31,837 nucleotides of DNA from an uncultured Dorea sp. (GTDB taxonomy: Bacteria; Bacillota; Clostridia; Lachnospirales; Lachnospiraceae), in NCBI GenBank assembly GCA_934295165.1, contig CAKRAT010000022.1, forward strand, positions 1 to 31,837. Direction: 5' to 3'. Shown here one piece after another: positions 26,999-30,207 of the stretch. Position numbers and translations under genes: made by a program. Position 1 is the stretch's first letter, and each line of letters starts with the position of its first letter. The notes under the pieces are model-generated. The model had not been told where the DNA came from, did no database searches, and was given only the letters and a program-made list of their open reading frames with translations.

Positions 26999-28096
26999 AT
27001 GGCAGGATCAACTTTTGGAACATTATTCACGATTACAACCTGGGGAGAATCCCATGGTCCGGCACTCGGTGTTGTTGTCGATGGCTGCCCGGCAGGTATT
27101 CCTCTTACCAGCGATTATATCCAGACATTTCTTGACCGCAGAAAACCCGGTCAGAGCAAATTTACCACAGCAAGAAAAGAATCTGATACAGTAGAAATTC
27201 TTTCCGGTGTCTTTGACGGTCTTACAACCGGCACTCCGATTTCTCTGATGGTACGCAACAATGACCAGCGCTCCCACGATTACAGTAAAATCAAAGATTG
27301 CTACCGTCCAGGACATGCCGATTATACTTTTGATCAAAAATATGGTTTCCGCGACTACCGCGGTGGCGGACGCACATCCGGACGTGAAACCATCGGACGC
27401 GTTGCCGGAGGCGCAATTGCCTGCCGTATCCTTGAGAATCTCGGAATCCATCTTACTACATATACAAAAGCAATCGGTCCTGTAACCATTCCTGCCGATT
27501 CCTGTGACTATTCGGTAATCAGCAAAAATAAGCTCTACATGCCAAATCTGGAATATGCCCAACAGGCAAGTGCTTATCTCGAAAAATGCATAAAAGAACA
27601 GGATTCTTCTGGAGGACTGATTGAATGTATCATCGATGGTATGCCGGCAGGTATTGGCGAACCAGTATTTAATAAGTTGGACGCTTCTCTTGCAAAAGCA
27701 GTCATGTCCATCGGCGCTGTTAAAGGCGTTGAAATTGGTGATGGATTTTCTGTTTCTTCTTCAAAAGGAAGCTGCAACAATGACCCATTCCTTTCCAGAG
27801 ATGGTCAGATTACCAAACAGACCAACCACAGCGGCGGTATTCTCGGTGGTCTCAGTGACGGAAGTCCGATCATTTTACGTGCAGCTATAAAACCAACCCC
27901 TTCCATCTCACAGCCACAAAAAACAGTGAACACCTCAGGAGAAAATATCGAAATTGAAATCTCCGGCCGCCACGATCCGATTATCGTACCACGTGCGGTT
28001 GTTGTCGTAGAATCTATGGCTGCGGTTACATTGGTGGATTTGTTGATGCAGAACATGAGTGCGCGGATTGAGTATATGAAGAAGATTTATTCTTAA
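26999..28096 (+). CDS. aroC: Chorismate synthase
   Basis: Converts 5-enolpyruvylshikimate 3-phosphate to chorismate using reduced FMN, the last step of the shikimate pathway. The 365-residue protein has the three family signatures: GESHGPALG (16-24), the RPGHADYTF segment (103-111) and RGGGRTSGRET (121-131), and the C-terminal GRHDP motif. AAGGAG lies eight bases before the ATG. It is monocistronic here; no other aro gene is adjacent. The coding sequence stops just before the large inverted-repeat element, which would form its 3' untranslated region. Confidence 0.97.
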   Translation: MAGSTFGTLFTITTWGESHGPALGVVVDGCPAGIPLTSDYIQTFLDRRKPGQSKFTTARKESDTVEILSGVFDGLTTGTPISLMVRNNDQRSHDYSKIKDCYRPGHADYTFDQKYGFRDYRGGGRTSGRETIGRVAGGAIACRILENLGIHLTTYTKAIGPVTIPADSCDYSVISKNKLYMPNLEYAQQASAYLEKCIKEQDSSGGLIECIIDGMPAGIGEPVFNKLDASLAKAVMSIGAVKGVEIGDGFSVSSSKGSCNNDPFLSRDGQITKQTNHSGGILGGLSDGSPIILRAAIKPTPSISQPQKTVNTSGENIEIEISGRHDPIIVPRAVVVVESMAAVTLVDLLMQNMSARIEYMKKIYS

Positions 28097-28153
28097 ATTG
28101 ATTTTCTATTTAATTATCATCGTGGCCTCTCGATCCATGAGAATGAATTCAGT

Positions 28154-28256
28154 AGAGGGACTGTAACCTTTGTGTGCAGCTGGGAAGTTATGGTGAAGGC
28201 CTTGATTTTCCGGCTTTTTTGTACACTTTCGGTACCACAACGGTTACGGTTCCTCT
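28154..28256 (+). repeat. First internal hairpin of the element
   Basis: A 21-pair stem (28154-28174 with 28236-28256) has one mismatch and two pairs that are G-U only in rightward RNA. Its top contains AAGGCC/GGCTTT (28196-28217) followed by a run of T, which may act as a weak aroC terminator. Confidence 0.7.
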
Positions 28257-28286
28257 GTTTAATTATTATGGCATGCGATAACGTGA

Positions 28287-28498
28287 CTGAAGAAAAGTAT
28301 GGGAGTGATTTCTGTGCATATGAGGTCATGGTTAGTAACTCTTGAGTAATAAAATTGACCGTTAGTCTTGGAAAAATCATTGTCTGAGACGAATGTCGAG
28401 TTTTGATTTTTCCAAGGCTGCTTTTAGGCCAATTTTGTTGCTCTAGAGTTACTCCATGATCGAATCAGCACAGAAATCACTCCCATACTTTTCTTCAG
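28287..28498 (+). repeat. Second internal hairpin, about 210 bases with perfect 31-bp arms
   Basis: Arms 28287-28317 and 28468-28498 are exact reverse complements over 31 bases. After a 6x6 internal loop the stem resumes at 28324-28360 with 28427-28461 (few mismatches, one 2-base bulge) and again as a perfect 13-bp stem, 28367-28379 with 28404-28416. The 24-base tip contains GAC-GAAT-GTC. It is far longer than any terminator and explains why both strands look similar here. Confidence 0.85.
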
Positions 28499-28539
28499 GG
28501 CCGGGGTAAGCCGCCATGATACATCAAATAGAAACAAAA

Positions 28540-30207
28540 TCACACATGAAAGCACCCGCCCCCGATAAACTCTCTAAGCAATGAATTTGCCGGTACATTT
28601 TCGCTTCCGATTCCCACAAAATAATCAAGGAACTTCAGCAACCGTTTTGCTTCCAGATATTCCGGACAGTCTCTTTCAATTCCAAATAATTGTGCTTCTA
28701 CATATGGTTTTAATACCGCAAGTTCATAGATCAATGCAGAGTTGAACATCACATCCGCTTCCTCCTGATACGGGAAGATATTCCGTTCTTCTCCTTTTCT
28801 TACAGACGGCCACATGCGGATCGTCTCTTTGGCTGATGTACCTCTGGTTCTTGCATCACGGACAATACGGCGGATCAGACGGCCGTCTGTTGTCGGAATG
28901 CGATTATGTTCATCAATATTCAGCTGAGTAAGTGCACTGATATAGATCTTGAACTTATTCTCATCCGGAAGGTTCCGGGTCAGTTCCGGGTTCAGACAAT
29001 GAATCCCTTCGATTACCAATACTTCATTTTCCTTTAATTTCTTCGGTCTTCCTTTATACTCTTTATGACCAGTGACAAAATTAAACTCCGGTATCACCAC
29101 TTCTTTTCCGTCCAACAATTCCTGAAGCTGATGATTGAACAAATCTACATCTACCGCATCAAGACCTTCAAAATCATACTCTCCGTTTTCATCTCTCGGT
29201 GTCTCTTCCCGTTCTTTAAAATAATTATCTACTGCAATCGGATACGGACATAGTCCATTTGCCCGAAGTTGCACCGATAACCGGTGTGAAAACGTTGTCT
29301 TGCTGGAGGAAGACGGTCCTGCAATCAACACAAACCGGACATCTGAACGTACTTTAATCTGCCCGGCAATCTGTGCAATCTTTTCTTCCTGCAATGCTTC
29401 CTGAACCAGTACCAGCTCATTGACATCACTCCTGGTGATCTTGTCATTCAGGTCTCCAACCGTCTCGATTCCCTGTGCGTCTCCCCATTTGGTTGATTCC
29501 TGCAGGACACGGAACAACTGATTCTGCGGTTCAAACGGAGGAACTATCTCCGGTGCATTCATTACCGGCATCTGAATGACAAATCCTTCATCATACAGAT
29601 ATAGTTTGAAATATTTCAAATATCCGGCACTCGGCACCATATATCCATAATAATAGTCTTCAAATTCATTCATACTATAGACATTCACACGTGATACCCT
29701 TCGGTAATGGAACAGACGCTCCTTATCATGCATCCCATGCTGTCCAAACATTGTAATTGCATCATCTGTGTGCACACTCTTTTTCCGAATCGGAAGATCC
29801 ATTTCTACCATTTCATGCATCCGGCTCTCCACCCGGTTCAGAAATTCCTCTGTAAGATTGATTTTTCCTTCTATCGTACAATAGTATCCTTTACTTACAG
29901 AATAGTGAATTCTTACTTTATCGATATTCTTGTGCTCTGCCACATCATACACTGCCTTGACAAGCATGAGACTCATACTTCTTCGGTAGCTTTTATACCC
30001 CAATGGATCTGCAGTCGTCACAAATTTCAATTCGCTATCTTTCTCCAGCGTTTTAAACAATTCCTGCAGCCTTCCATCTGCAAATACCAATACAATATCA
30101 TAAGGATACTCTGCCTGACATGCTCTGGCTATCTCCTGATATGTTGTTCCCGCCTTGAATTTTCTGTCCGTTCCATTTACATGAACCGTATATAAAGTCT
30201 CATTCAT
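28540..30207 (-). CDS. TGS-domain nucleoside (uridine) kinase-like protein
   Basis: A 555-residue cytoplasmic fusion. The first ~65 residues resemble a TGS domain, and the next segment (to ~220) resembles the second additional domain of threonyl-tRNA synthetase. A phosphoribulokinase/uridine kinase domain occupies about 290-490. The P-loop reads G297-PSSSS-K303-TT, with serine where the usual GKT glycine stands. The kinase-typical DNYFKEREETPRDENGEYDFEGLDA and VIEGIHCLN segments follow. Such fusions are annotated as nucleoside kinases in Firmicutes; uridine or cytidine is the presumed substrate but this is not proven. GAGGT precedes the ATG. Its stop codon touches the edge of the large inverted-repeat element. 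Confidence 0.85.
   Translation of the reverse strand: MNETLYTVHVNGTDRKFKAGTTYQEIARACQAEYPYDIVLVFADGRLQELFKTLEKDSELKFVTTADPLGYKSYRRSMSLMLVKAVYDVAEHKNIDKVRIHYSVSKGYYCTIEGKINLTEEFLNRVESRMHEMVEMDLPIRKKSVHTDDAITMFGQHGMHDKERLFHYRRVSRVNVYSMNEFEDYYYGYMVPSAGYLKYFKLYLYDEGFVIQMPVMNAPEIVPPFEPQNQLFRVLQESTKWGDAQGIETVGDLNDKITRSDVNELVLVQEALQEEKIAQIAGQIKVRSDVRFVLIAGPSSSSKTTFSHRLSVQLRANGLCPYPIAVDNYFKEREETPRDENGEYDFEGLDAVDVDLFNHQLQELLDGKEVVIPEFNFVTGHKEYKGRPKKLKENEVLVIEGIHCLNPELTRNLPDENKFKIYISALTQLNIDEHNRIPTTDGRLIRRIVRDARTRGTSAKETIRMWPSVRKGEERNIFPYQEEADVMFNSALIYELAVLKPYVEAQLFGIERDCPEYLEAKRLLKFLDYFVGIGSENVPANSLLREFIGGGCFHV

Follow-up and report, generated by a model that had tools for sequence, protein, structure and literature searches.

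A 432-bp palindrome downstream of aroC in an uncultured Dorea sp. is probably an internally deleted copy of a dispersed, MITE-like DNA element

The intergenic region between aroC and a convergent nucleoside kinase gene of an uncultured Dorea sp. (Lachnospiraceae) is occupied by large nested inverted repeats, which raises the question of whether it gives rise to a structured RNA or is itself a mobile element. A first-pass annotation of the window, i.e. the whole stretch of 31,837 nucleotides that was analysed, had offered both readings. The features of the locus are listed below in window coordinates; TIR denotes a terminal inverted repeat, and G127 is the related genome in which the closest further copies were found.

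26999-28096, plus strand: aroC, chorismate synthase (PF01264, E 6.7e-140)
28103-28534, plus strand: whole element copy, 432 bp, made up of left TIR, junction of the hairpin A deletion, hairpin B, hairpin C and right TIR
28103-28136, plus strand: left TIR, TTTCTATTTAATTATCATCGTGG...
28136-28150, plus strand: junction of CATGAGA with ATGAATTC, where hairpin A (~220 bp in G127 copies) is missing by eye comparison with G127 copies E1-E8
28153-28257, plus strand: hairpin B (fold of -52.7 kcal/mol for 28150-28262)
28178-28221, plus strand: terminator-like stem-loop in hairpin B, AGCTGGGAAG...TTTTCCGGCT, with the stem-loop at 28178-28215 followed by a T run; candidate aroC terminator
28287-28498, plus strand: hairpin C, a 212-nt copy of a wider module family
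28314-28325, plus strand: conserved internal loop 3 of module C, 5′ side GTGCATATGAGG, 3′ side GAATCAGCAC at 28462-28471
28360-28364, plus strand: conserved internal loop 2 of module C, 5′ side CGTTA, 3′ side GCTTTTAGG at 28420-28428
28380-28402, plus strand: conserved apex of module C, TTGTCTGAG-stem-CGAGTT
28498-28534, minus strand: right TIR, reading TTTCTATTTGATGTATCATGGCGGCTTACCCCGG... on the minus strand
28540-30207, minus strand: nucleoside kinase of the uridine-kinase family, convergent with aroC (PF00485, E 6.9e-19)

The nested inverted-repeat structure reported between the two genes is present at 28103-28534, with the termini TTTCTATTTAA and TCAAATAGAAA. It folds far below shuffled sequence, with -211.3 kcal/mol on the plus strand compared to -112.1 (sd 5.8) in 100 dinucleotide shuffles, none of which was as low (z -17.0), and -170.3 kcal/mol on the minus strand (z -13.6). 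Paired arms are found at 28103-28114 with 28523-28534, at 28287-28331 with 28454-28498 (45 nt, 89% complementary), at 28334-28360 with 28427-28453, and at 28364-28379 with 28404-28419. The left end lies six bases past the aroC stop (28096), exactly as annotated. The outer stem is imperfect across about 35 bases (by eye from the fold), as had also been described. Its right end at 28534 is 5 bases short of the stop codon of the minus-strand kinase gene, the first base of that codon being 28540. The two separate long hairpins of the annotation correspond by folding to B and C. An 87-aa ORF inside the window copy had no Pfam match.

Among 397 Lachnospiraceae genomes searched with the window element, 17 gave matches at E <= 0.01, one of them strong (G127, E 7.7e-145). 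The annotation's proposal to look for further copies in related Lachnospiraceae proved fruitful in this genome, where 47 BLAST matches with the window copy as query, and 38 with the longest G127 copy, resolve to about 25 dispersed sites (E1-E25), many of them fragmentary. Six of these copies measure 654-723 bp, three 436-536 bp and the remainder 33-362 bp; with the longest as query, no match was obtained in G001 or G399, two genus mates of G127. Of the four places returned by a search of G127 for the terminal-repeat pattern, three coincide with copies already known. The window copy is homologous to the copies of 654-723 bp, the fullest of which consist of TIR, hairpin A, hairpin B, hairpin C and TIR, with module A in reverse and module C in forward orientation, A being absent from the window copy. 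Content is modular, and the arrangements A-B-C, B-C (window), A-B (E10, E11) and C alone (E3) all occur. Identity to the window copy is 88, 93 and 95% for the three best G127 copies, compared to 72-89% for the others; aroC and the kinase gene are 78% and 82% identical between G127 and the window, and the best aroC match among the 80 loci listed is 75% identical. At the aroC-kinase site itself the element is absent from G127, G001 and G399, with approximately 100-150 bp between the matched ends and a short hairpin visible by eye in each. By mechanical ORF calls, 18 of 24 G127 copies lie between convergent ORFs, like the window copy, and 6 between tandem ORFs, with none in a divergent setting (E25, with no downstream ORF, was dropped). 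A flanking ORF stops within the terminal repeat at 9 of the 25 sites.

Hairpins A and C are one module on opposite strands. The module is built of a stem of ~31 bp, an internal loop, a middle stem of 7 + 9 + 17 bp, an internal loop GT / NTTTTA, a stem of 17-18 bp and the apex YTGTYTGAG-stem-CGAGTT; apex and internal loops are conserved at near-fixed spacings, and the stems vary freely. A second type of internal loop, GCGAGCATAGC / GCGGCGCAGC or close to it, accompanies the same apex in genomes G284 (L198, L202, L204, L205), G101 (L197, L201) and G258 (L200), and outer arms differ widely among the G284 copies of this type. Hairpins are 176-342 nt long in 37 rows of module loci. Searching for the exact apex pattern, with no structural model, yielded nine places in 4 of the 397 genomes and none with the reversed control; all nine are tips of hairpins 179-298 nt long, and the apices of G127 fall outside this exact pattern. 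Model R1, built in part from the window copy and matching 28310-28475 of hairpin C at 173.5 bits, finds matches in 50 of the 397 Lachnospiraceae genomes and in 24 of 389 genomes sampled from the class, with a threshold of E <= 0.01 per genome, at which about 4 chance genomes are expected in each set. For each genome seven candidates were scored; the class set includes some Lachnospiraceae, G001 and G209 being common to both sets. Matches at class level are weak (best 7.5e-9). Of the loci inspected, 28 of 32 from the family and 24 of 25 from the class have the apex, these being matches to a model that itself favours it. Many Lachnospiraceae carry the module C family, for which the signal across the class is weaker, and its presence in other Clostridia is likely. 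A plasmid or phage origin finds no support: 72,556 plasmid records and 50,697 phage records contain no match to the window element, and a class-level hairpin gave matches of no more than 32 bases to 13 plasmids (E 0.4) and none to phages. In two viral contigs that carry the exact apex pattern it lies within an open frame with no long hairpin, and these were likewise set aside; a variant pattern matched no viral contig. The pair CTGTTTGAGC..GCGAGTTT is carried by eighteen viral contigs (L318-L335).

Elements with the same core are numerous in two further genomes. In G049 the core is present at 10 places, alongside a fragment of 34 bp and a palindrome that consists of arms only; G363 has at least 37 places (40 of 114 candidates were scored). 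The 289-bp elements of both genomes end in GTAACAGTTC / GAACTGTTAC, forming 10-bp inverted ends; some copies of the element end in TTTCTATTTA. Flanking 8-bp repeats include CTTTATTC (L341), GAAAATGA (L344) and, by eye, AGCGGAGC (G049 site a). An 8-bp duplication at 7/8 or better borders 7 of 8 copies in G363 and 6 of 9 in G049 (13 of 17 together), compared to mispaired-flank means of 0.81 and 0.90, respectively, in an automated test that misplaced the boundary of L252. Because of the 10-bp inverted ends and the 8-bp target duplications, the core in G049 and G363 is seen to transpose as DNA. The combination of GTAA ends with 8-bp duplications recalls the IS66 family. For G127 together with the window, a duplication at 7/8 was found in 2 of 12 copies, equal to the mispaired mean of 1.95; for this branch transposition is only inferred. 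The mobile-element reading of the annotation thus gains support from the dispersed copies in G127, from the site empty in three relatives, and from elements of the same core with inverted ends and 8-bp duplications in two genomes.

A hand-made alignment of 13 modules, fitted to the structure and excluding near-identical and most partial copies, has pairing in 773 of 829 cells, with both partners altered in 58 of 66 pairs. A MAFFT alignment of 11 of those modules has 88.8% of its cells paired and both partners altered in 40 of 55 pairs; none of 500 shuffles paired as highly, and slid controls pair at 37-46%. The annotation had proposed that many dispersed copies would support a mobile element, and a single syntenic copy with compensatory changes a structured RNA. 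The compensatory changes are indeed present, but this rule fails to separate the two readings because dispersed copies show them too. Neither are such changes decisive for RNA, because template switching gives the same pattern: passages of PMC8794818 describe template switching during replication as creating hairpins and keeping their arms complementary, and as able on its own to yield pairing of this kind. In nine G049 copies (a tenth, L256, misaligned by the script, was left out), the outer arms of ~58 bp differ between copies and pair almost perfectly within each, a pattern that fits arm-to-arm copying by template switching. Outer arms are nevertheless not peculiar to each single copy, since G363 has arm subfamilies, with at least 12 near-full-length matches to one arm type among the 40 of 114 candidates scored. 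The resemblance to template-switching hairpins, as portrayed in parts of PMC8794818 and PMC7202029, lies in arms kept complementary by replication copying one from the other; the difference is that here the process, if applicable, acts on a mobile family with conserved mismatched loops. Arm-to-arm copying would also erase these loops, so that their conservation points to selection on the loops: something must select for them.

The same compensatory change, along with an apex and loops conserved at near-constant spacing, could speak for a structured RNA, either non-coding or part of a 3′ UTR, with stems maintained by selection at the transcript level and with the ability to spread in the genome as a repeat. 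If transcripts are selected, isolated stem mismatches should show an excess of G-U over A-C on the working strand. A hand-fitted count in the G127 family gives 46 G-U and 12 A-C (related copies), and was rejected as proof of RNA since no excess is seen across loci: on the module strand there are 15 G-U and 23 A-C with one locus per genome (32 loci), and 73 and 84 in a looser count of 77 loci. The latter divide into 11/5 for G127 and the window (p 0.21), 31/30 for other Lachnospiraceae, 12/10 for the class, and 19/39 for G049 with G363 (p 0.012, but from 17 related copies). At 19 loci between tandem genes, the transcribed strand has 28 G-U and 16 A-C (p 0.10). A complete class A RNase P RNA, present in the window at 2369-2720 on the minus strand (304 bits), gave 6 G-U and 2 A-C as a small control. 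Orientation is also non-random, which speaks for an RNA together with the G127 count and the lean on the transcribed strand. Modules in other genomes are less restricted in their setting than those of G127, and occupy 9 convergent, 24 tandem and 2 divergent settings by a strict count (n=35), and 10, 20 and 5 by a looser one (2 of 37 rows dropped) in which 8 of 35 rows had ORFs that ran more than 60 bases into the hairpin. Between tandem genes the module strand opposes transcription in 18 rows and agrees with it in 6 (14 and 5 when each genome contributes one row, p 0.06; 13 and 7 in the looser count), and indifference of orientation was discarded. Against an RNA stand the missing overall G-U excess, the absence of any sigma-70-like promoter from 28000-28650 in a consensus scan, the fact that template switching alone can produce such pairing (in the portion of PMC8794818 cited above), and the Rfam searches. 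Group II introns, skipping-rope, ROOL and OLE are classes in Rfam, and no Rfam family reached its cut-off in the element or the module loci, so that known Rfam classes were dismissed as its identity. Sub-threshold matches in E-value mode were to microRNA precursors, BTnc201 and snR190 in the element and to MIR8643 in module loci, and sub-threshold T-box matches fall outside the modules. The annotation's remark that no known RNA class could be recognised therefore holds. Its suggestion of a structured RNA formed as the aroC 3′ end retains the compensatory changes in its favour, finds neither an Rfam match nor an overall G-U excess, and has a non-significant G-U lean on the transcribed strand. 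We regard an RNA as an unlikely explanation of the element as a whole. A transcript may still have a role.

Two further explanations carry much less weight with us. REP/REPIN elements with RAYT transposases, as presented in parts of PMC3116915, are likewise palindromic and intergenic, with inverted module pairs forming hairpins, and an element of this type mobilised by an IS200-like or REP-associated Y1 transposase on single-stranded hairpins would be in keeping with a location often just past stop codons and with window and G127 copies that are without target duplication; hairpin recognition would account for the conserved loops. However, modules here are ~200 nt long, several times the 20-40 bp given for REP sequences in a passage of PMC3733652, and 8-bp duplications are present in G049 and G363. 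Moreover, PF01797 proteins, present in 213 of 397 genomes, occur in 31 of 50 module-positive genomes and in 182 of the 347 others (hand count from lists), and were not detected in G101, G284, G302, G366 and G370, each with 6-7 scored module matches (assembly completeness unstated). A Y1 transposase was rejected as the mover on these counts. PF01797 does not track the element, so that an IS200/RAYT enzyme is not required, and a REP/REPIN-type origin is very improbable. That the region is an ordinary, if unusually long, bidirectional terminator evolved in place is hardly credible. Its position between convergent genes, where relatives have short hairpins, and the terminator-like stem-loop within B would agree with such an origin, but homologous copies at ~25 other places in G127 refute it as a complete account, and the plus-strand ends, rich in T at the left and in A at the right, are the reverse of a terminator tail.

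In our view the sequence at 28103-28534 is probably one copy, 432 bp long and with an internal deletion, of a palindromic DNA element with dispersed copies, likely a non-autonomous, MITE-like giant hairpin. Terminal inverted repeats are found in the window (28103-28136 / 28498-28534), in G127 copies and in the G363 and G049 elements, and there are many dispersed intergenic copies with neither a transposase gene of their own nor an ORF with a known domain; the 8-bp duplications of the G049 and G363 elements are a further likeness to MITEs. Unlike MITEs, the family shares between species with different ends a hairpin core that is conserved, its internal loops being spaced at near-fixed distances, and the window and G127 copies do not have the duplication. 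The element would be moved in trans by a transposase; none was recognised by eye among the ORFs between far-apart inverted modules in G341 and G193. DNA-polymerase template switching, copying one arm onto the other, would be the main cause of the stems staying complementary, and selection would keep the loops, which a protein likely reads, either in the extruded DNA hairpin or in the transcript of it. Several observations stand against this DNA-element explanation: G127 and window copies without target duplication, the identity of just 72-89% between the window copy and all but the three best G127 copies, no transposase or autonomous parent found, PF01797 transposases that do not track the element, an orientation opposed to transcription (18 versus 6 rows) that plain DNA selfishness does not predict, and the signs of RNA-level selection in the G-U lean of the G127 family and of the transcribed strand. 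A bolder picture, which we put forward tentatively and with some doubt, is that of Clostridia-wide selfish DNA hairpins ~75 bp tall in which a protein reads mismatched loops at fixed heights, template switching rewrites the stems, and differing transposon ends have taken up the core from one species to another, covariation then being unsafe here as proof of RNA.

Insertion between convergent genes would presumably be tolerated. At the present locus the element probably replaced the aroC terminator that relatives seem to keep, to judge from the short hairpin at their empty sites. A terminator, i.e. a GC-rich stem-loop followed by a T run, is absent at the element's own ends. The stem-loop in B likely ends aroC transcripts. 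This structure has a predicted fold of -20.9 kcal/mol for 28176-28224 and was not listed by the consensus scan.

These data describe a large repeat family of Lachnospiraceae, and likely of other Clostridia, that is matched by no Rfam family and that explains RNA-like structure between genes. It offers a natural case of very strong compensatory change within a mobile element, and brings within reach of testing the general question of how frequently covariation between bacterial genes stems from template switching of DNA and not from RNA function. A section of PMC8040213 reports that 250 of 3,161 candidate structured RNAs from the human microbiome are palindromic; such candidates resemble the present family in being palindromic and found by comparative genomics, and a prior listing of the family among them is possible as far as that section goes. 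Among the literature matches listed, none described the element or any of four 15-letter versions of its apex.

Some minor observations concern individual loci. In G049, L257 (G049:C1:4477501-4477601) is a near-perfect palindrome of ~115 bp related to the arms of L246, with the core missing. The ends of G363 contigs C1 and C16 (L336, L337) lie beside genes that flank G049 copy b; a few hundred bases past those genes both contigs end in other sequence, with no module visible. Finally, L298 (G705) and L303 (G600) are 82-84-nt versions, AAAAAATCGG...CCGATTTTTT, that have the same apex and a 3′ T run and are terminator-like.
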